Under the pieces are notes generated by a model. That model had not been told where the DNA came from. It worked only from the letters and a program-made list of their open reading frames with translations, and did not search any database. 64,000 nt of DNA from Bacteroidota bacterium (lineage in GTDB: Bacteria; Bacteroidota; JABWAT01): assembly GCA_023151185.1 (NCBI GenBank), contig JAKLJL010000001.1, positions 434,001 to 498,000 of the forward strand. The letters run 5' to 3'. The position numbers and the translations under genes were made by a program. Positions 38,814 through 50,706 of this stretch are shown here, piece by piece. Each line of letters starts with the position of its first letter. The first letter of the stretch is position 1.

Positions 38814-39458
38814 ATGCAAGTAAAATCCAAAAAGCGGGTTACTGACCACGGTGAAGTGTTTACTAACCAACGTGAAGTATGTGCTATGCTCGATTTGGTG
38901 AGACACGAAACGGAACGTATTGACTCTCGTTTCTTGGAACCTGCTTGCGGTAACGGAAACTTTTTAGCGGAAGTATTGAGACGAAAGTTAACAGTTCTGG
39001 ACATCCGATATAGCAAAAGTCAAGTGGAATGGGAACGCTATTCTGTTATTGCAGTTTCGAGCATTTATGGAGTTGATATTTTGGAAGACAACGCCCAGGA
39101 ATGCAGAGACCGTTTGCTTGGAATTTATACCGATTGGTATTCTAAAGTATTCAAGCAAGTTAAAAATGAGTGTATTCGTTCTGTTCGATTTTTATTGAGC
39201 AGAAATATACTTTGGGGTGACGCTTTAGACTTTACCAATCCCGAAACCAAACAACCGATTGTGTTTTCTGAATGGAGTGCCGTAAACGGCTCCATGCTGA
39301 AACGTAGAGATTATATGTTCAAATTTTTAGTGGAGAAAACGCACCAGTTTTCAATGTTCAATGACGAAGGCAATGCAGCAGCCATTGATGAACCGGTAAA
39401 AGATTTTCCGCTTATTCATTTCTTAAAATTGGGCGAAGATGATACAAACGAACTATAA
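38814..39458 (+). CDS. N6-adenine methylase-like small subunit lacking the catalytic motif
   Basis: 214 aa. Contains the SAM-binding motif I 'FLEPACGNGNFLAEVL' (about 40-55), preceded by 'TDHGEVFTNQREVCAMLDLV', the usual N6-MTase opening, but I see no NPPY/DPPY catalytic motif. Its 3' end overlaps the Eco57I-like methylase gene by 20 bp, so the two are translated together. It may be a SAM-binding partner subunit or the N-terminal half of a split enzyme. The last residues (FPLIHFLKLGEDDTNEL) are acidic. Confidence 0.7.
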   Translation: MQVKSKKRVTDHGEVFTNQREVCAMLDLVRHETERIDSRFLEPACGNGNFLAEVLRRKLTVLDIRYSKSQVEWERYSVIAVSSIYGVDILEDNAQECRDRLLGIYTDWYSKVFKQVKNECIRSVRFLLSRNILWGDALDFTNPETKQPIVFSEWSAVNGSMLKRRDYMFKFLVEKTHQFSMFNDEGNAAAIDEPVKDFPLIHFLKLGEDDTNEL

Positions 39459-40983
39459 CCCTGATGTACTCTCCTGCCTTGCCAATTTGAGCAATGACGA
39501 AGTGTTCACGCCACCGGGTTTGGTGAATGATATTTTGGACTTGCTCCCTGTCGAATTGTGGAGTAACCCAAACACAAAGTTTTTGGACCCCGTTTCTAAA
39601 AGTGGGGTGTTTTTGCGTGAAATGGCAAAGCGACTGATGAAAGGTTTGGAAACACAAATTCCCGACAAGCAGGAACGTATTAATCACATTTTTAGCCAAC
39701 AATTGTATGGCATTGCCATTACCGATTTAACAGCATTGCTTTCTCGCAGAAGCGTGTATTGCTCCAAAACTGCCAATGGTAAATACTCCATTTGTGACGC
39801 CTTTTATGATGAACAAGGAAACATTCGTTACAAACGAATGAAGCACACTTGGTCCCGCGATGACGGGAGAAAATGTACCTATTGCGGTGCAAGTCAAGAA
39901 GTTTACGACCGAGAAGAAGTCTTGGAAACATATGCTTACAATTTTATTCACACAGAAAAACCTGAAAAAATATTCAATATGAAGTTTGACGTTATTGTTG
40001 GAAATCCACCTTATCAATTAAGCGATGCCGGTCATGGAAGAAGTGCAAGTCCGATTTACCATAAATTTATTGAACAAGCAAAAAAGTTAAATCCAAGATA
40101 TTTAACAATGATTATTCCTGCTCGTTGGTATGCAGGTGGTAAAGGTTTAGATGATTTTAGAGCTGAAATGTTAGCAGACAAAAGAATCAGAAAGCTTGTT
40201 GATTTTGAAAATTCAAATGATGTGTTTCCGGGCGTTGATGTAGCAGGTGGTATTTGTTACTTCCTTTGGGATAGAGATAAAAAAGGTCAATGTGAAGTAA
40301 TAAATCTCATTGATGGAAAGCAAGTCAAATCTGAAAGAGCTTTAGATGAATTTCCAATATTAATCCGTCACAGCCAAGCAATACCAATAATACGTAAAGT
40401 AGTGGCAAAGAATGAAAATGGCGGTAAAAGATTGAGCGAAGTGGTTTCTTCAAGAAAACCATTTGGACTACCAACTAATTACAAACCCAAAAACAGTGGT
40501 GTTCCTTGTTGGTTTATTCAGAAAATTGGTTTGAAGTATGCTAGTAAAAGCGACATTTCTGATGACAACAAATTATTAGACAAATGGAAATTGTTAGTGC
40601 CACCAGCACCAATTGCAGGACAAACAGATTTTTCCAAACCTGTAGGCTTTTATTATGACGGTAATACAAGAATTGCAAAGCCGGGTGAATGTTGTACTGA
40701 ATCATTTATAGTTGCGGGTGCGTTTTCTACCGAGAAAGAAGTCCTTTCATTCAAAACTTATTTATTTACAAAAACCGTAAGATTCCTTCTGCTCCAAACT
40801 GTAGTGTCTCAACACGTAACAAAAGATAAATTTCATTTTATCCCTGACCTTGGAAAATATCAAGGCGAATACACAGATAGAATGCTCAATGAGAGATGGG
40901 GAATTACTGATGATGAATGGAATTTTATTGATTCCAAAATCAAGAATATTGGTGCAAACGAAACAGTCGAAGAAGATGAGTAA
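39439..40983 (+). CDS. Eco57I-like N6-adenine DNA methyltransferase
   Basis: 514 aa. Opening 'NDEVFTPPGLVNDILDLLP', motif I-like 'FLDPVSKSGVFLREM' (about 48-62), catalytic motif IV 'VGNPPYQLSD' (about 188-196), then a target-recognition-like C-terminal half. A cysteine pair 'KCTYCGA' (about 140) and another 'YCSK...SIC' suggest a zinc ribbon inserted before motif IV. It methylates adenine in a specific site so that host DNA escapes the downstream nuclease-helicase. The start overlaps the preceding gene by 20 bp and its stop overlaps the next gene by 8 bp. A+T-rich compared with the core. Confidence 0.9.
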   Translation: MIQTNYNPDVLSCLANLSNDEVFTPPGLVNDILDLLPVELWSNPNTKFLDPVSKSGVFLREMAKRLMKGLETQIPDKQERINHIFSQQLYGIAITDLTALLSRRSVYCSKTANGKYSICDAFYDEQGNIRYKRMKHTWSRDDGRKCTYCGASQEVYDREEVLETYAYNFIHTEKPEKIFNMKFDVIVGNPPYQLSDAGHGRSASPIYHKFIEQAKKLNPRYLTMIIPARWYAGGKGLDDFRAEMLADKRIRKLVDFENSNDVFPGVDVAGGICYFLWDRDKKGQCEVINLIDGKQVKSERALDEFPILIRHSQAIPIIRKVVAKNENGGKRLSEVVSSRKPFGLPTNYKPKNSGVPCWFIQKIGLKYASKSDISDDNKLLDKWKLLVPPAPIAGQTDFSKPVGFYYDGNTRIAKPGECCTESFIVAGAFSTEKEVLSFKTYLFTKTVRFLLLQTVVSQHVTKDKFHFIPDLGKYQGEYTDRMLNERWGITDDEWNFIDSKIKNIGANETVEEDE

Positions 40984-43525
40984 AAAAGAATTTTTTCCGC
41001 CCCGACCGTCCACTAATCCAATCATTTATGCCTATGAATTAGTAAATGTGGCAACTCACATGGGTTTGCTCAAAATCGGCTATACCGACCGTGATGCACA
41101 AATACGTATCAAAGAGCAGTTAGGCACTGCCGCCATTCCCTACAAAATTGTGTTTGAAGAATCGGCAATGAAGCGAGACGGCAGTTCGTTTACCGACCAC
41201 GAAGTACACCGATTGCTGCGAGAGTGGAAAGTTGTAAACGCCGGTGGTGAATGGTACAAATGCACCTTAAACGACTTGCGTAGAGCCATTCATCAAATCA
41301 AAACAGGCGAAAAAACAGAAGAAAACCGTGTGCTTACTTTCGGTATGCGACCCGAACAGGAAGCAGCCATTGACAAGACCATTTCCTATTTCAAAAGTTT
41401 CAAGAAAGAAAACAAAGACAGAACGCCCCATTTTTTGTGGAACGCTAAAATGCGATTCGGGAAAACCTTTGCCAGTTATCAATTGGCTAAAAAAATGGGG
41501 TGGAAAAAAGTGTTGGTGCTAACCTTCAAACCAGCTGTTGAAGATGCCTGGAAAGAAGATTTACTTTCTCACGTTGACTTTAAAGGTTGGCAATTTATTT
41601 CCAAACACGCTGATGAATTATCAAGCCAGGATATTGACACCCAAAAACCGTTGGTTTGCTTTGGTTCGTTTCAGGATTTTTTAGGCAAGAACACCAACAC
41701 AGGTGGTATTAAAACCAAAAACGAATGGGTACACGCCACCGTGTGGGATTGTATCATTTTTGACGAATACCATTTTGGTGCTTGGCGAGAAAACGCCAAA
41801 GATTTATTCGGTAAAGACTTAGAAGCCGAAAAAGAAATTGAAGAATACAAAAAGATTGAAAAAGAAGGTATTGCCGAAGAAGACAAAGCGGAACACTTAG
41901 AGAAGATTATCCCAATCAGCACCAATCACTATTTGTATTTGTCAGGCACTCCATTTCGGGCAATCAGTTCAGGCGAATTTATAGAAGAGCAAATTTTCAA
42001 TTGGACGTATTCCGACGAGCAAAGAGCAAAAGAAAATTGGGACGATTCCTTAGGTCCAAATCCTTATGCAGCCTTACCAAGAATGGTAATGCTTACCTAT
42101 CAATTGCCCGATTCCATTCGCCAAATTGCTATGCAAGGCGAATTTGACGGTTTTGATTTAAACATATTCTTTTCAGCAGAAGGGGAAGGACGAAAAGCCC
42201 GTTTCAAATACGAAGATGAAGTACAAAAATGGTTGGATTTGATTCGGGGTTCGTTTAGCGAAACCACCGTTGACCATTTGAAGATGGGTGCAAAAAAGCC
42301 GCCTTTGCCTTTTTCACACGCTCCTTTGCTCAAAGTACTGAATCACACTTTTTGGTTTTTGCCAACAGTTGCAGCGTGTAACGCAATGGCATTGTTACTT
42401 GAAAGACGACAAAATATATTTTACCACGATTACAAAGTGGTTGTGGCAGCAGGAACACAAGCAGGAATTGGAATTGAAGCATTACCGCCAGTATTAAATG
42501 CAATGACCGATAATCCATTGAAATCAAAAACCATAACGCTTTCCTGCGGTAAACTCACCACAGGTGTATCGGTAAAACCGTGGACAGGAATTTTTATGTT
42601 GCGTAATTCTTCCAGTCCTGAAACCTATTTTCAAGCAGCATTCCGTGTGCAAACACCTTGGGTAATTAAAAACCCCGACAGCAAATCTCCCAACAAAGAA
42701 GAAATTTTAAAGGAAGAATGTTACGTTTTTGACTTTGCTCCCGACCGGGCATTAAGACAAATTGCTGATTACAGTTGCCGACTAAATGTAAACGAATCAA
42801 ACCCCGAAGCAAAAGTTGCAGAGTTTATCAACTTCCTGCCAGTCTTAGCTTATGACGGCAGTTCAATGAAACAAGTTGATGCAGCAGGTATTTTGGATAT
42901 GGCAATGAGTGGCACAACCGCAACGCTTTTGGCAAGACGTTGGGAAAGTGCTTTGCTCGTAAATGTGGACAACAACACGCTTGCCCGTTTGATGGCAAAC
43001 GAAGAAGCCATGAATGCCTTGATGAGTATTGAAGGTTTCAGGAATTTGAATCAGGACATTGAAACGATTATCAATAAATCGGAAGCCGTTAAAAAAGCAA
43101 AGAAAGAAGCCAACGACCGAGAACTGACCAAGAAAGAGAAAAAGGAACTTTCAGACGAAGAAAAGGAATACAAAAGCCTTAGAAAGCAAATTCAAGAGAA
43201 GCTAATCAAGTTCGCAACTCGTGTACCAGTTTTTATGTACTTGACAGACTACCGAGAACGAAGTTTGAAAGACGTAATCACGCAGTTAGAGCCAGGATTA
43301 TTCAAAAAGGTAACAGGACTTTCTGTGAATGACTTTGAATTATTAGTAAGTCTTGGAGTGTTCAACTCTGCTTTAATGAATGATGCCGTTTACAAATTCA
43401 AACGCTATGAAGATGCAAGTTTGGAATATATCGGAATCAACAAGCACGAAGGTGAAGATGTTGGATTATTTGATACAGTTCTTAGTCGACAAGATTATGA
43501 AGAGAGTTTTGAAAATGAGCCGTGA
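40976..43525 (+). CDS. GIY-YIG (T5orf172)-SF2 helicase restriction protein
   Basis: 849 aa, ATG overlapping the methylase stop by 8 bp. N-terminal T5orf172 GIY-YIG-like nuclease (about 15-100: 'YAYELVNVATHMGLLKIGYTDRDAQIRIKEQLG...FTDHEVHRLL...GGEWYKC'). Superfamily 2 helicase core: Walker A 'AKMRFGKT' (about 155), motif II DEYH (about 261), motif III 'LSGTPFRAI' (about 321), motif VI-like 'TYFQAAFRVQTPW' (about 551). A Lys/Glu-rich coiled coil follows (about 700-745). It would translocate on DNA and cut unmodified sites. With the two methylase genes it makes a complete system that fits neither classical Type I nor Type III, because the nuclease is GIY-YIG rather than PD-(D/E)XK. Confidence 0.85.
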   Translation: MSKKEFFPPRPSTNPIIYAYELVNVATHMGLLKIGYTDRDAQIRIKEQLGTAAIPYKIVFEESAMKRDGSSFTDHEVHRLLREWKVVNAGGEWYKCTLNDLRRAIHQIKTGEKTEENRVLTFGMRPEQEAAIDKTISYFKSFKKENKDRTPHFLWNAKMRFGKTFASYQLAKKMGWKKVLVLTFKPAVEDAWKEDLLSHVDFKGWQFISKHADELSSQDIDTQKPLVCFGSFQDFLGKNTNTGGIKTKNEWVHATVWDCIIFDEYHFGAWRENAKDLFGKDLEAEKEIEEYKKIEKEGIAEEDKAEHLEKIIPISTNHYLYLSGTPFRAISSGEFIEEQIFNWTYSDEQRAKENWDDSLGPNPYAALPRMVMLTYQLPDSIRQIAMQGEFDGFDLNIFFSAEGEGRKARFKYEDEVQKWLDLIRGSFSETTVDHLKMGAKKPPLPFSHAPLLKVLNHTFWFLPTVAACNAMALLLERRQNIFYHDYKVVVAAGTQAGIGIEALPPVLNAMTDNPLKSKTITLSCGKLTTGVSVKPWTGIFMLRNSSSPETYFQAAFRVQTPWVIKNPDSKSPNKEEILKEECYVFDFAPDRALRQIADYSCRLNVNESNPEAKVAEFINFLPVLAYDGSSMKQVDAAGILDMAMSGTTATLLARRWESALLVNVDNNTLARLMANEEAMNALMSIEGFRNLNQDIETIINKSEAVKKAKKEANDRELTKKEKKELSDEEKEYKSLRKQIQEKLIKFATRVPVFMYLTDYRERSLKDVITQLEPGLFKKVTGLSVNDFELLVSLGVFNSALMNDAVYKFKRYEDASLEYIGINKHEGEDVGLFDTVLSRQDYEESFENEP

Positions 43526-43571: not shown

Positions 43572-45935
43572 ATGAAAACTTGTGAAGAAATTCTTTTAAC
43601 AATAGGTGCAAATAAAGTTGAGTTACTTAGTGAAAATGAACATTGGAATTTTTGGAAAGGAATCTACACTACACCTGCAGGTTCTGTTTCAGGTTTTTAC
43701 TTGTATTTATATTCAAAATGCCCTGGAAAGGAGGCAAATAGTGTTAATATTTCTTTATGGAAAAAAATTTCTGGCGAAAGCGGTTATGAAATTATTGTTT
43801 CCCCTGGGTGTGAGTTGATTAAAAATGGCGAAATATCAAAAAAAACACTCAAAGATTTTGCAGGAAAGGAAATCTACTCAACAAGAAGTTTCCTATATAA
43901 AAACTTAATATCCTCTCTTGAAATTTTAAACGGTTTAACGGAAACATACTATATCGAACCAACTCTTATACTTGAGGATGGCAAGTTCATTCAAGAGCCA
44001 AGTTTCTTTTTAGCTAACTGGTTAAAAGGTGAAAAATCAAATATTCAAAAAAGTGTTAATCTTCTCGCTATTATCGCTCACGGGGGTGTTGGTAAAACAA
44101 CATTGGTAAAGGAAGTAAATGATAGATTGAAAAATGATGATGGGCAATTTATAATTCCCCTATTAGTTGAATCAGAACAATGGCGTGGTTTATTAAGTAA
44201 TTCATTTTCACTTTCAAGTGTTTGGGAAAGTTCAATAGCTCGTCTATTCCAGAATCCCGCAAGATTAAAAATAAATGAGATGGCTTTTCGTGTTCTTGTC
44301 CGAGAAGGAAATTTTGCAATTATATTTGATGGCTTTGATGAACTTTGTATTTCTACTGTTTCACAAAGTCCTACAGAGATTATAAAAGAATTATTATTAT
44401 TAACCAATTCAGACGATGAAGAGGAATCAAATGCGAAAATTATAATAACCTCAAGAAAGAATTTTTGGGAATCAATTGAGGATAAAGAAAGTATTTCAAA
44501 AAATATTGAAGTGTTTCAATTACGGGGTTTTGATACTGATCAAAAACAGCGTTATTTCCAAAAAAGATTACAAGATCCAGTTGAAAGGACAAATGCATTC
44601 ATTTTATCGAGACGTGTTGGAGGACAAATATATGAGGGGATTCAAAATGAAGAGACTAACTTTGACCGGATCTCTGGTTCACCATTTATTCTAGATTTGA
44701 TTGCACGATATGTTCATGAAAACGATGATCCGAATTTAAACCCATATGAAACAGACCCACTTACTGCATTTTTAAATGATGTTTGCAAAAGAGAAAATGT
44801 TAGGCAAACATTATCAATAAGTCCTGAAAAACAATTTGAAATATTTGAGGAATTATTTAGGGAGTATCCAACGACATTTGATTTAGACAATTTGGAGATA
44901 ATGCTTGATATATTCTGTGGAATTAAAGATAAAAAAACTATTCAAAGGTTTTCTGAACACCATTTTATAACAAAATCATCCGGCTATAATTATGAACCTA
45001 GATACGAAGTATTAAAGGTATATTTTATCGCAAGGTTCCTTTTTAGAAGTTTAAAAGATTTGATAACACCAGGATATAGAAAGGAAGTAGCTAAAGTATT
45101 GGCGATGAATTCTACAGGTACAACTCAAGTAATTGAATGGTTGGTTTTGCAATTACAAAAGCTAGATAACATTGTATTGATTTCCGCTATTAAGCATGCA
45201 TTTGAAGTTTTAAATGATGATGAAAATATAAATTACAAGAAGGATGCACTTCAAGCCATTGGGTTGATATTAAATAATATTGTAAGCAAAAAACTTGATA
45301 AACAAGATCGAACGAGGAAATTAGGTCAACTTTCTCAATCTTATGAAAATGGGATTGTGATTTTCAGGGAGAAGGTATTTACTGATAACTACCAAAAATA
45401 TGATTTTAGCAATGTAAGTTTTTTAAATTGCAGGTTTAATAATATTCAATTTAAAAATTGTATTTTCAATTCAAATACTATCTTTTCGTCATGTACGTTT
45501 GAAGGATATATTGAGTTTCATAATAATACAGGACAAAATGAAGTAATTCATGTAAATAATGTTTATTCAAAAGAGTCTGAGGTTGTTTTTAGTAAAATAT
45601 TTAATAAAACAATTACCGAAGAAACAAAAATATTTTTCGCAGAAGATGCTCTTACCAAATCATTAAAAAAGTTCAAAAAGGGAAACCAATTATCATCAAT
45701 ACAATTTACATATAGGCAAACTGGTATGAGACCAGGTAATCCCTATAATGAAATAATATGGGAGGTGCTTTTAAAGCACCATATTATAGAAAAACATTCA
45801 ATTTCAAATGTAACTGACGGCGGTCTCAATGTTATTGGGAATAAAGAAATTAAAATAGAAATCTTAAATTATTTGCAAAATGGAGTTCCAGGTATATACC
45901 TTAAGAAAGTTATAAAAGATTTGATTAATAATTGA
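43572..45935 (+). CDS. NACHT/STAND-type ATPase with pentapeptide-like repeats
   Basis: 787 aa. Residues 1-130 form an N-terminal domain I cannot name. The NTPase core has Walker A 'AHGGVGKTTL' (about 168-178), Walker B 'FAIIFDGFDEL' (about 245-255, the NACHT-style double acid) and sensor 'KIIITSRKNFW'. After a helical region comes a run of pentapeptide-like repeats ('YDFSNVSFLNCRFNNIQFKNCIFNSNTIF', about 608-640), then a helical C-terminus. STAND ATPases of this layout act as phage sensors that trigger a toxic N-terminal effector. It lies 46 bp after the nuclease-helicase and 40 bp before the ATPase-cyclase gene. G+C about one third by eye. Confidence 0.75.
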   Translation: MKTCEEILLTIGANKVELLSENEHWNFWKGIYTTPAGSVSGFYLYLYSKCPGKEANSVNISLWKKISGESGYEIIVSPGCELIKNGEISKKTLKDFAGKEIYSTRSFLYKNLISSLEILNGLTETYYIEPTLILEDGKFIQEPSFFLANWLKGEKSNIQKSVNLLAIIAHGGVGKTTLVKEVNDRLKNDDGQFIIPLLVESEQWRGLLSNSFSLSSVWESSIARLFQNPARLKINEMAFRVLVREGNFAIIFDGFDELCISTVSQSPTEIIKELLLLTNSDDEEESNAKIIITSRKNFWESIEDKESISKNIEVFQLRGFDTDQKQRYFQKRLQDPVERTNAFILSRRVGGQIYEGIQNEETNFDRISGSPFILDLIARYVHENDDPNLNPYETDPLTAFLNDVCKRENVRQTLSISPEKQFEIFEELFREYPTTFDLDNLEIMLDIFCGIKDKKTIQRFSEHHFITKSSGYNYEPRYEVLKVYFIARFLFRSLKDLITPGYRKEVAKVLAMNSTGTTQVIEWLVLQLQKLDNIVLISAIKHAFEVLNDDENINYKKDALQAIGLILNNIVSKKLDKQDRTRKLGQLSQSYENGIVIFREKVFTDNYQKYDFSNVSFLNCRFNNIQFKNCIFNSNTIFSSCTFEGYIEFHNNTGQNEVIHVNNVYSKESEVVFSKIFNKTITEETKIFFAEDALTKSLKKFKKGNQLSSIQFTYRQTGMRPGNPYNEIIWEVLLKHHIIEKHSISNVTDGGLNVIGNKEIKIEILNYLQNGVPGIYLKKVIKDLINN

Positions 45936-45975: not shown

Positions 45976-48051
45976 ATGAATATGGCAAATAATAATTGGA
46001 TTGTTGATGCTGATTCTTTTGATATTAAAAAAAATAATGATTTAATACTTTACACTGACAATATAATTGAGTTTTTAAATAATGAGAACACCGACGACTC
46101 ATTTATTGTTGCAACAAAAGGAATTGGTAAAACTTTACTCCTTAAAATGAAACGAGACTCTCTCAATTCTTATATTGTTATTCCTCAATCAGGTATTGAT
46201 AATTTTGTTACTCAAAGTACTCTGAGTAAAGAGGCCATAGATCTATTCAAAGATAAAAATAATATGGAAACTTTATGGACGATTTCCATAATTATAGCTA
46301 TAATGAAAAAAAGCGAATATAATTTAGGGAATGAAGATATTTCTCCTTTTATTTTAAAAATCTATAACAATAAATTAATAACACATGTTTCAGAAATATT
46401 TATTTCAATAATACACGCAAACCGAAGTGAATATTTTCGTTCAAAGGAGGACTTGGAAAAAATTCTTATACCAATTTATCGTAAAAATATAAGCGGATCG
46501 TTTGCCATATTTATTGATAATATTGATGAGTATTTTAAAAAACATCTAGATAAAAATAGTAAGGAAAGTCGATTCGGTGAAATTGATCCTGAAATTTGGT
46601 ATTCGTCTCAAATTGGACTAATGTTGAGCTATTTTAATTTAAGAAAACTCAATCATCATATAAAATTATATGCATCAATTCGCCAAGAAGCTTTTAATAG
46701 TTTCCAAGGAAACGAAGAACTTTTTCAGCAAATTAATGGTAAAGTATTTAAATTAAACTATAGTAAAAGTGATTTAGCTAATATTTTTATTAACAATTTA
46801 AAAAAAGAAAAAAAGAGTAATTACTGTGATCCAATAAATTATAAAAATAATATTGTTAGATCATTTTTTGGTTTTGAAAAAATATACCATAAACACTTAA
46901 AAAAGCACGAGCCTATTGTTGATTATATACTTAGACATACTTTGGGTAGACCTCGTGACTTAATGCAAATTGGTAAAGCCCTCGTCCAATTGACAACACG
47001 AGAAAGAGAACCAAATATAATTAGGCAACTTGTTCATAATGAGTCAAAGTCGATTCTTGATCATTATTTATCGATGGTAAATTCCCATATACCGCGATTA
47101 GATTTAAAAATAATATTTCAATTTATTGAAACAAATGCTTTAAAATATGATGATCTTAAAGCAATATGTGGGATTTATAACGATCAAACAAACTTTGAGT
47201 GCAACAGAATTACATGTTCAATGTGCAAAAAAACGCATATATTTTGTATTTTACATAAAATTGGTTTGCTTGGAACAATATATAATGATGGTATGCCAAC
47301 AAAAAGAATCCAAAAATTTATTACCCCTGGTGAAAAAACATTTTCTGAGGATCATTTTCTTCCCAATTCGGAAATATATATAATACACCCTGTTTTAAAT
47401 GCCTCAATAAAAGTGGAAAACTCAAAATATATGACCGGTAGAAACCAATATAATATTGTAGGTAATGATCTTGAATGGGTTTTTGGGAAAAATATTAATA
47501 AAACAAAAAAAACAAAAAAGGTAGGTGTACTTGTTGGGGATATAAAAGATTATGGTAAAACCATGACTAAATTGTCTGGTAAAAAGTTTATGAAATATCA
47601 ATCAATTGTCCGGAAAATTATAAATATCGAAAATCTGAAATGTGATAATATTGGCATTAAAGATGGTGATAAGGTAGTTATTTATGAAAAAAACTCAGTT
47701 AAATTAATTACAGCTGCGTTTAGAATTATTGACGAATTGAAAATCAATAATATCTTTATAAGAATTGGTATAGATTTTGGTAATGTTGAATTTTATGATG
47801 ATGACATTAAAAATGGTATTCCGATTCTGCAGGCGGCAAGATTAGAACCAATTGTAACTCCCTCACAAGTATGGTGTACAGAGAAATTTAAAACTGAATT
47901 GGAAAAAATCACAAACGCTTACAATTACGAAGATGTTTCCAATGAGCCATCTGACTCTTTTAAACAAAAAATACAAGATGGAAAAGTAATTGTAAATAAA
48001 GAAAGTCAGGATACAATAAAACTAAAAGTATTTAGAATAAAAAGAGAGTAA
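45976..48051 (+). CDS. P-loop ATPase (Sll1717-like) fused to a divergent class III nucleotide-cyclase-like domain
   Basis: 691 aa (a second ATG at 45982 has the better-placed GGA). N-terminal ATPase: Walker A 'ATKGIGKTLL' (about 46-55), Walker B 'FAIFIDNIDEYF' (about 175). A Cys cluster 'CNRITCSMCKKTHIFCILH' (about 408-427) looks like a zinc site. From about 514 to 640 comes a class III cyclase fold: 'VGVLVGDIKDYG' (first metal Asp), 'GIKDGDKVVIYE' (second metal Asp), 'IRIGIDFGNVEF' and 'ILQAARLEPIV'. Both metal Asp and the Arg of the Asn/Arg pair are present, but the Asn is replaced by Leu and the base-selecting Lys position is Ile. The cyclase may have unusual specificity, as in Pycsar enzymes, or be a nucleotide sensor. 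Very A+T-rich (under 30% G+C by eye). Confidence 0.7.
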   Translation: MNMANNNWIVDADSFDIKKNNDLILYTDNIIEFLNNENTDDSFIVATKGIGKTLLLKMKRDSLNSYIVIPQSGIDNFVTQSTLSKEAIDLFKDKNNMETLWTISIIIAIMKKSEYNLGNEDISPFILKIYNNKLITHVSEIFISIIHANRSEYFRSKEDLEKILIPIYRKNISGSFAIFIDNIDEYFKKHLDKNSKESRFGEIDPEIWYSSQIGLMLSYFNLRKLNHHIKLYASIRQEAFNSFQGNEELFQQINGKVFKLNYSKSDLANIFINNLKKEKKSNYCDPINYKNNIVRSFFGFEKIYHKHLKKHEPIVDYILRHTLGRPRDLMQIGKALVQLTTREREPNIIRQLVHNESKSILDHYLSMVNSHIPRLDLKIIFQFIETNALKYDDLKAICGIYNDQTNFECNRITCSMCKKTHIFCILHKIGLLGTIYNDGMPTKRIQKFITPGEKTFSEDHFLPNSEIYIIHPVLNASIKVENSKYMTGRNQYNIVGNDLEWVFGKNINKTKKTKKVGVLVGDIKDYGKTMTKLSGKKFMKYQSIVRKIINIENLKCDNIGIKDGDKVVIYEKNSVKLITAAFRIIDELKINNIFIRIGIDFGNVEFYDDDIKNGIPILQAARLEPIVTPSQVWCTEKFKTELEKITNAYNYEDVSNEPSDSFKQKIQDGKVIVNKESQDTIKLKVFRIKRE

Positions 48052-49330: not shown

Positions 49331-49767
49331 AACCCCAGTTCAATGTGTTATGTGGTAATATCAAAATATTATTTAACACAAAATAAAACTCCACTACCTG
49401 GGTGATACCCCCGATTTCCTGAAATATTACCTCCTCAGGCAAGTTTCTACATCTCCGGCCGGATTGGCGTCATCTGGTTGCTGACGCCTGATGATCAGTC
49501 CAATGATGGGAAGGGTCAATCGGAATTTACAGAAACCTGAAAAGTATCAGACATCTCAAAATCCCTTTTGCTTTCTCTATCATGGATGAGTTTCGCAGAA
49601 ATTCGGTAGTCTGATCCCCGATCCCGGTCCCCTCAAGAGCTTTGGTCCCGGTCCCTTCGAGGACCTTGGTCCCTGAGCCTGTCGAAGGGCAGGGTCCGGT
49701 CCGGTTTCACTACCCGGTGGCTGAGGTTCTCGAAGCCACCGGGTGACTTTCAGGTACCGGTTGCAAC
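49331..49767. other. Intergenic region at the right edge of the island, with REP-like modules
   Basis: A+T-rich to about 49400, then core-like. GGCGTCA...TGACGCC (49466-49488) is a hairpin. REP-like modules occupy 49614-49753 (core CTGAGCCTGTCGAAGG at 49673-49688), ending in the inverted arms CGGTGGCTGAGG...GAAGCCACCG. No gene seen. Confidence 0.65.
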
Positions 49768-50154
49768 TCACGCGCGGGAGTGCAGCCCGATGGTGTTGCC
49801 TTCGGTATCCAGGACAATGGAACAGAAACCATGTTCACCCAGCGACATTTTGGGCTGAAGAACCTCGCCGCCGGCGGCTTTGACCCGGCTTTCTTCTACG
49901 GCGCAGTCCTCGCAGGTGAAATAAACCAGGGTTCCGCCGGAACCGGGTTTCATCGAGTCCATTTTCACCAGAGCGCCACTGATGTTTTCTTTTCCTTCAG
50001 CCCACGGAAAACTGACCATCTGGCCGAATTCTTCCGGCATTTCCATATCGGTCAGGGTAACCTTCAGCACCGATTCGTAAAATGCTTTTGCGCGTTTCAT
50101 ATCCTCCACGTAGATTTCCACCCAGGTGAACGGATTTTTTGTTTGTGCAGCCAT
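49768..50154 (-). CDS. VOC (glyoxalase/bleomycin-resistance) superfamily protein
   Basis: 128 aa, one VOC domain: 'PFTWVEIYVEDMKRAKAFYESVLKV' at the N-terminus, 'GTLVYFTCEDCAVEESRVKAAGGEVLQPKMSLGEHGFCSIVLDTEGNTIGLHS' at the end. The paired betaalphabetabetabeta modules and the final 'DTEGNTIGLH' with His and Glu-type metal ligands are typical. Such small proteins are annotated as glyoxalases but their substrates are usually unknown. Single gene on the minus strand flanked by REP clusters. Confidence 0.88.
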   Translation of the reverse strand: MAAQTKNPFTWVEIYVEDMKRAKAFYESVLKVTLTDMEMPEEFGQMVSFPWAEGKENISGALVKMDSMKPGSGGTLVYFTCEDCAVEESRVKAAGGEVLQPKMSLGEHGFCSIVLDTEGNTIGLHSRA

Positions 50155-50309
50155 GACGGATCCTTTCTGTTTTTTGGTAATGTCCTGTTAACTTTCTGAC
50201 CGGATTTCCAGTTCCGGTACGGTTCAGTTTCAACCTGGCTGATGACCGTGATCCCCGGACCCCGGGTGATTTTTCTTGCGGGATTTCTTAAAGTCCGGCC
50301 ACCGGAATG

Positions 50310-50706
50310 AAAACCACCCTGGCCCCCCGGTCCCTTCGAGGACCTTGGTCCCTGAGCCTGTCGAAGGGCAGGGTCCGGGACCCTTCAAGTGCTTTAGTCC
50401 CGGTCCCTTCGAGAGCCTCAGGGTCCTGGACCCTTCAAGTGCTTTAGTCCCGGTCCCTTCGGGAGCCTCAGGGTCCGGGACCATCGAGAGCTTGGGTCCC
50501 TGAGCTTGTCGAAGGGCAGGGTCCGGGACCACTCGAAGCCACCGTAAAAGGAGGGGAACTTATTTCTACCACCTACTATCTACTGTCTACTACCTACTAC
50601 CTACTACCTTCTGGCTTCCGTCTCCCGTCTCCTGTCTTCTGACTCCTGCCTTCTGACTCCTGACTCCTGACTTCTGTCTTCTGTCTCCTGTCCCCTGCCT
50701 CCCGTC
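50310..50706. repeat. Composite dispersed repeat cluster (REP-like modules plus heptamer tract)
   Basis: REP-like modules at 50324-50545 (cores at 50350-50376 and 50498-50524, joined by repeated 'CCCTTCGAGAGCCTCAGGG' spacers), then GAAGCCACCG, GGAGGGGAACTT, and a heptamer tract (CTACTAC/CTGTCTT/CTGACTC units, 50566-50704) up to the stop of the FG-GAP gene. Fills most of the 554-bp gap. Confidence 0.88.

Follow-up and report, generated by a model that had tools for sequence, protein, structure and literature searches.

What a P-loop ATPase and a nucleotide cyclase-like domain might do when joined in a single chain inside a bacterial defence island is the question raised by the gene at positions 45976..48051 of the window, i.e. 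the whole 64,000-nucleotide stretch of Bacteroidota DNA analysed here. This open reading frame, like all its features given below, lies on the forward strand; it starts with ATG and runs for 691 codons free of internal stops. The product combines an Sll1717-type P-loop ATPase (residues 1–505; 45976..47490) with a divergent class III cyclase-like domain, which HMM score and fold match place at residues ~510–660 and which was modelled to the C-terminus (47491..48048). The ATPase half contains a Walker A motif, ATKGIGKTLL (residues 46–55; 46111..46140), in which K48, G49, G51, K52 and T53 are invariant in its relatives, a Walker B motif, FAIFIDNIDE (residues 176–185; 46501..46530), in which I178, F179, D181 and D184 are invariant, and a Cys/His cluster (residues 409–424; 47200..47247) of the form C409-x4-C414-x2-C417-x3-H421-x2-C424. 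All five Cys and His residues of the cluster are invariant across four aligned proteins, and it is a probable zinc site. These three elements had been picked out in the initial annotation, and both their positions and their conservation in relatives are borne out. The whole 691-residue protein has no match in Pfam or in PADLOC, and at full length it finds no solved structure by sequence.

To assess the C-terminal part we used an HMM of class III cyclases built from 37 domains, mostly from genomes of the same phylum, with the fusion protein excluded. Against this model the last 196 residues reach 35.2 bits (E 5.6e-13 for one sequence), compared with a maximum of 10.4 bits among 10,000 shuffled sequences, and the initial annotation was right to align the C-terminus with the class III cyclase fold. 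The residues from ~510 onwards are a genuine class III cyclase-homology domain. The domain taken alone has no match to Pfam PF00211 up to E 10, and the only cyclase match for the fusion protein in NCBIfam is a weak one (19–22 bits) to the cyclase part of LipJ/Rv1900c. Structure prediction, the check that had been proposed for this region, recovers a class III cyclase fold after residue 510 from a seven-row alignment that includes six cyclase relatives (pLDDT 71.8, pTM 0.74). The best PDB match of this homology-assisted model is the cyclase domain of Rv1900c (E 1.9e-10, TM 0.72), and every one of the 50 top PDB matches listed for it is a class III cyclase. Without an alignment, AlphaFold models the C-terminal domain at a pLDDT of 35, too low to be of use, with cyclases among the weak fold matches. 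As the fold model is homology-assisted and not blind, the class III assignment rests mainly on the HMM test.

The active-site positions of this domain show a mixed picture. Both metal-binding Asp are retained, as D522 in the motif GDIKDYG (47536..47556) and D565 in the motif DGDKVVIYE (47662..47688), as is the Arg, R622, in the motif AARLEP (47833..47850), whose R, E and P are invariant in the divergent cyclase subfamily described below. The transition-state Asn is replaced by L618, the base-selecting Lys by I561 and the base-selecting Asp by I615. Thus, the residue calls made earlier (metal Asp and Arg present, Leu for Asn and Ile for the base Lys) are correct. The missing Asn does not set this protein apart, since ThsB1-like, NUDIX and TPR-S relatives also lose it while keeping the Asp pair and the Arg. 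We likewise gave up the idea that loss of the Asn is by itself proof of a dead enzyme, as Asn-less relatives keep all other catalytic residues.

A sharper clue than the missing Asn, and one out of reach of the initial annotation, comes from the relatives of the ATPase half. Residues 19–474 match almost the full profile of the NCBIfam family NF047389 (ATPase_Sll1717) with 64.5 bits, against a curated cut-off of 75 bits; the fusion protein is therefore related to this family and lies just outside its cut-off. The ATPase profile finds only chance-level matches among solved structures by sequence. The closest ATPase relative found, P0002, shows 28% identity over 529 columns, covering residues 8–502 of the fusion protein; the relatives comprise WP_013283038 of the Butyrivibrio proteoclasticus plasmid pCY186 and two proteins from clostridial metagenome-assembled genomes (MAGs; P0004 and P0005). 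The clostridial relatives score higher against NF047389 (P0002 130 bits, P0004 116 bits), and all three end in a C-terminal SEFIR/TIR domain, as indicated by the Pfam TIR_2 model for P0004 (33 bits, 8e-8), by the PADLOC bSEFIR model for P0002 and P0004 (95–103 bits) and by alignment for P0005. They share with the fusion protein the Walker motifs, a GRPRD motif and the Cys/His cluster at 28% identity, but where they carry SEFIR/TIR the fusion protein has its class III cyclase-like domain, and neither the fusion protein nor this domain matches PADLOC bSEFIR (PDLC03957). Judged by these alignments, the ATPase half is a divergent member of the scaffold on which the clostridial SEFIR/TIR proteins are built, and the cyclase-like domain occupies their C-terminal effector slot. 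The surroundings also differ: the clostridial MAG loci adjoin FRG-domain genes (L038:8901-10019 and L039:5114-5902, once downstream and once upstream of the SEFIR-ATPase gene), whereas the fusion gene adjoins a NACHT gene.

Within the same phylum, Sll1717 ATPases score above the cut-off in 13 of 394 genomes, and most are unfused proteins of ~500 residues. Fused versions include one with a TIR/SEFIR-like domain N-terminal to the ATPase (L018; PADLOC bSEFIR, 32 bits), another whose N-terminal TIR/SEFIR-like domain was judged by resemblance only (L019), and one with a nucleoside-deoxyribosyltransferase-like domain that scores below its own cut-off (L008). A weak match in the same phylum (L005) was rejected as a relative on inspection. 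As SEFIR/TIR-, deoxyribosyltransferase-like and cyclase-like fusions all occur, the Sll1717 ATPase is a carrier of exchangeable effector-type domains. At one locus (L080:7253-11455, reverse strand) the gene for a TIR/SEFIR-like Sll1717 ATPase adjoins one for a 592-residue RelA_SpoT-domain protein (47.7 bits), a possible alarmone-type partner.

The relatives of the cyclase half point in the same direction. The closest among the collected cyclases is no canonical cyclase; it is a 358-residue protein of the same phylum (L006, genome G115; 28.9% identity over 142 residues), the second half of which matches the C-terminal half of ThsB1-type TIR proteins (PADLOC ThsB1, 62.9 bits). Two plasmid-encoded ThsB1-type proteins match the ThsB1 model along their whole length (441 and 402 bits), each with a TIR domain at residues 1–105. 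Since full-length ThsB1-type proteins have their TIR there, the L006 protein has a divergent cyclase in place of TIR, a second and independent exchange. It shares with the fusion protein the R[IL]EP motif, the loss of the Asn and the retention of the metal Asp, but its cyclase domain has the ThsB1 C-terminal domain as its partner where the fusion protein has an ATPase, and it has no obvious defence neighbours. This protein, with its cyclase-like replacement of TIR, is located at L006:1477-2550 / L134:8428-9504. At L132:1551-3426 a reverse transcriptase (retron type VI model, 281 bits) directly precedes a full-length ThsB1-type TIR protein. From such domain comparisons, the data suggest that TIR and the divergent cyclase swap on two unrelated scaffolds, the Sll1717-type ATPase and the ThsB1-type protein.

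Further divergent domains of this kind are fused to a NUDIX domain in a Rhizobium beringeri plasmid protein (L073:2998-4071), with a separate NUDIX hydrolase gene downstream of it, and are found in cyclase-like/TPR-S proteins of Caballeronia and Priestia. A Priestia aryabhattai plasmid (L082:2118-10327) brings together a PycTM gene, a cyclase-like/TPR-S protein, an RyR-domain gene and a TIR gene. Across the divergent set the Asn is replaced by Leu, Asp or Val, but is kept in the Priestia protein, and the base Lys by Ile, Asn or Glu; both metal Asp and the Arg are unchanged wherever their columns are present, including in all the Asn-less domains.

The genomic context of the fusion gene is that of an island of ~14 kb with a GC content of 0.27–0.40, against ~0.50 outside. 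Its genes encode a GmrSD/DUF262 protein, two methyltransferases, a ResIII helicase with a T5orf172 domain, a NACHT protein, the fusion protein and a PLD protein. The fusion gene is absent from the two congeners and the one confamilial genome examined; in the empty-site comparison with one congener (G011) the genes flanking the island lie on separate contigs. The island is a horizontally acquired defence-gene setting, and its low GC, its defence-type neighbours and its absence from congeners agree with the setting proposed in the initial annotation. In its restriction-modification part (38814..43525), the methylase and helicase halves of the PADLOC type IIG model PDLC03626 are divided between two overlapping genes and stand in reverse order, the helicase gene bearing the T5orf172 domain and a small extra methyltransferase-like gene preceding them. 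The right edge of the island (49600..50532) has repeats of the type CCCTGAGCCTGTCGAAGGG, which also yield long, probably spurious open reading frames.

The NACHT gene (43572..45935, forward strand) encodes a 787-residue NTPase (Pfam NACHT, 38 bits) with a C-terminal pentapeptide-like stretch (Pentapeptide_3, 23.6 bits), and its stop codon lies 40 bp upstream of the fusion gene on the same strand. Its GC content is 0.301 (GC3 0.213) and that of the fusion gene 0.27, as against 0.37–0.40 for the restriction-modification genes. On just three grounds, the 40-bp gap, the common strand and the shared low GC, the two are probably operon partners that were imported as one two-gene unit; a scan for promoters and terminators gave no clear excess over shuffled sequences. 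The NACHT gene has one homologue among 296 genomes of the same phylum (27% identity; G029, L078:7260-10810), which contains the same pentapeptide-like stretch and is followed 15 bp downstream by a DUF4062 gene. DUF4062 proteins are TIR-like antiphage NADases (PMC13174449). Coming from one homologue, this pairing of NACHT with a TIR-like gene is a lead and not a rule. No second copy of the fusion turned up in pattern scans of IMG/VR, phage records and GTDB genomes, which reach close relatives only, and 391 clostridial genomes scanned with a profile yielded just a match that was already known and a weak one. We therefore regard the fusion, seen once, as rare, with lower confidence.

We favour, with about even confidence for and against, a reading in which the acquired AT-rich pair of NACHT and ATPase-cyclase genes works as a STAND/bSEFIR-like defence module, the cyclase-like domain being an effector that acts on NTPs. 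By analogy with SEFIR, TIR and STAND relatives, an infection cue, which the NACHT protein might pass on, would cause the ATPase to bind ATP and assemble, and the cyclase-like domains would thereby meet head to tail. Class III cyclase active sites form at the dimer interface, so that two chains are needed, and ATPase-driven assembly would therefore be a natural switch. The two metals held by the Asp pair might then act together with R622 on an NTP, giving another cyclised nucleotide or a hydrolysed one. The outcome could be a local signal, or a drain on the nucleotide pool that stops growth and would parallel the NAD drain by SEFIR/TIR relatives. Ordinary cAMP or cGMP is an unlikely product, given the replacement of the base-reading Lys and Asp and of the stabilising Asn. 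Pfam detects no known nucleotide receptor in the island, which counts against this reading. As a broader and more doubtful proposal, the Asn-less R[IL]EP cyclase-like domains might together represent distinct immune effector enzymes that replace TIR on several scaffolds (Sll1717 ATPases, ThsB1-type and TPR-S proteins), acting on NTPs either to deplete their pool or to make something that is not cAMP, cGMP, cCMP or cUMP.

The combined loss of the Asn, the Lys and the base Asp (L618, I561 and I615) counts against an effector, being the pattern that would be expected of a dead domain. The domain could instead be a pseudo-cyclase, a catalytically dead nucleotide sensor or dimerisation handle that gates the ATPase, with the killing done by the NACHT protein or elsewhere. 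Precedent for this comes from several cNMP cyclases fused to conflict-system components, which passages of PMC7159879 describe as inactive and perhaps only nucleotide-binding. However, the metal Asp pair and the Arg have been kept even though the domain has only ~20% identity to other cyclases, and the same slot is filled in the relatives by enzymes, namely SEFIR/TIR. The retained Asp are not decisive on this point because a dead sensor could hold metal-NTP with them, and we consider a pseudo-cyclase somewhat unlikely while still a possibility to be taken seriously.

Two readings would make the domain an enzyme of a more conventional kind. If it were a Pycsar-like or ordinary second-messenger maker, its cyclic mononucleotide would open a separate receptor-effector. 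The class III fold of the homology-assisted model would suit such a role, and a related TPR-S cyclase lies near the PycTM gene on the Priestia plasmid, but the C-terminal domain has no PADLOC PycC match, PycTM is absent from the island and from the whole genome, and a search with Pfam alone finds neither PycTIR nor a cyclic-nucleotide-binding, SAVED, STING or CARF domain among the island proteins. Moreover, V520, I561 and D563 differ from the base-choice residues of PycC (PMC11224242). We judge this reading improbable, and the link to Pycsar drawn in the initial annotation falls with the lack of a PycC match, of PycTM in the genome and of the pyrimidine-cyclase base residues. Still less probable, in our estimate very much so, is an ordinary cellular signalling protein, a soluble-adenylyl-cyclase-like NTPase-cyclase with no part in defence. 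Chains of cyclase and P-loop NTPase do exist both within the phylum and outside it (L053, L075), and six or more further class III cyclase domains are encoded in the genome. Yet the L053/L075 type differs in ATPase family and in domain order; the fusion gene, with its GC of 0.27 against ~0.50 around the island, is missing from the related genomes and has defence-type neighbours, and the nearest relatives of both its halves are SEFIR/ThsB-type proteins.

The preferred reading, with the cyclase-like domain as effector, bears on more than this locus, as the exchange suggests that bacterial immunity can use TIR/SEFIR and cyclase-like domains interchangeably. Should the exchange be real and the domain active, immune ATPases could be re-armed by a nucleotide-cyclase-type enzyme that takes the place of an NADase in the same slot, and there would be a group of 'cyclases' with a product that nobody has measured. 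A dead domain would be informative too, as a nucleotide sensor in the TIR slot.

Among known systems, Pycsar shares with the fusion domain the class III cyclase fold and serves in phage defence, but it consists of PycC with PycTM or PycTIR, whereas the fusion protein has no PycC match, no receptor gene was found for it and its cyclase-like domain is fused to an ATPase. The closest solved structure to that domain, Rv1900c/LipJ of Mycobacterium tuberculosis (TM 0.72), is an active adenylyl cyclase in which the cyclase domain is joined to a lipase-type domain and not to an ATPase. Cyclases of the soluble-AC type combine cyclase and P-loop NTPase in one chain. L053 and L075 resemble the fusion protein in this respect, but in them the cyclase leads and an NTPase of another type follows; the cyclase of L053 has the canonical residues. 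The core of the initial annotation, a single chain of ATPase and divergent cyclase-like domain encoded in a defence island, stands along with its setting, unlike the Pycsar link; its statement that no described system has such a layout was too strong, in view of chains such as L053 in the same phylum. Passages of PMC7159879 (eLife 2020) further report that, in NTPase-based conflict systems, a single effector slot is shared by cNMP cyclases and TIR/DRHyd domains; the systems treated there are vWA-MoxR ternary systems, and Pfam did not reveal their core components among the island proteins. In the openly licensed literature we found no description of a cyclase-like domain at the C-terminus of an Sll1717-type ATPase, and no paper on Sll1717. 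Cyclase-NTPase chains and the exchange of cyclase for TIR are thus already known, and what the present locus adds is an Sll1717-type ATPase that carries a C-terminal cyclase-like domain, seen here once.
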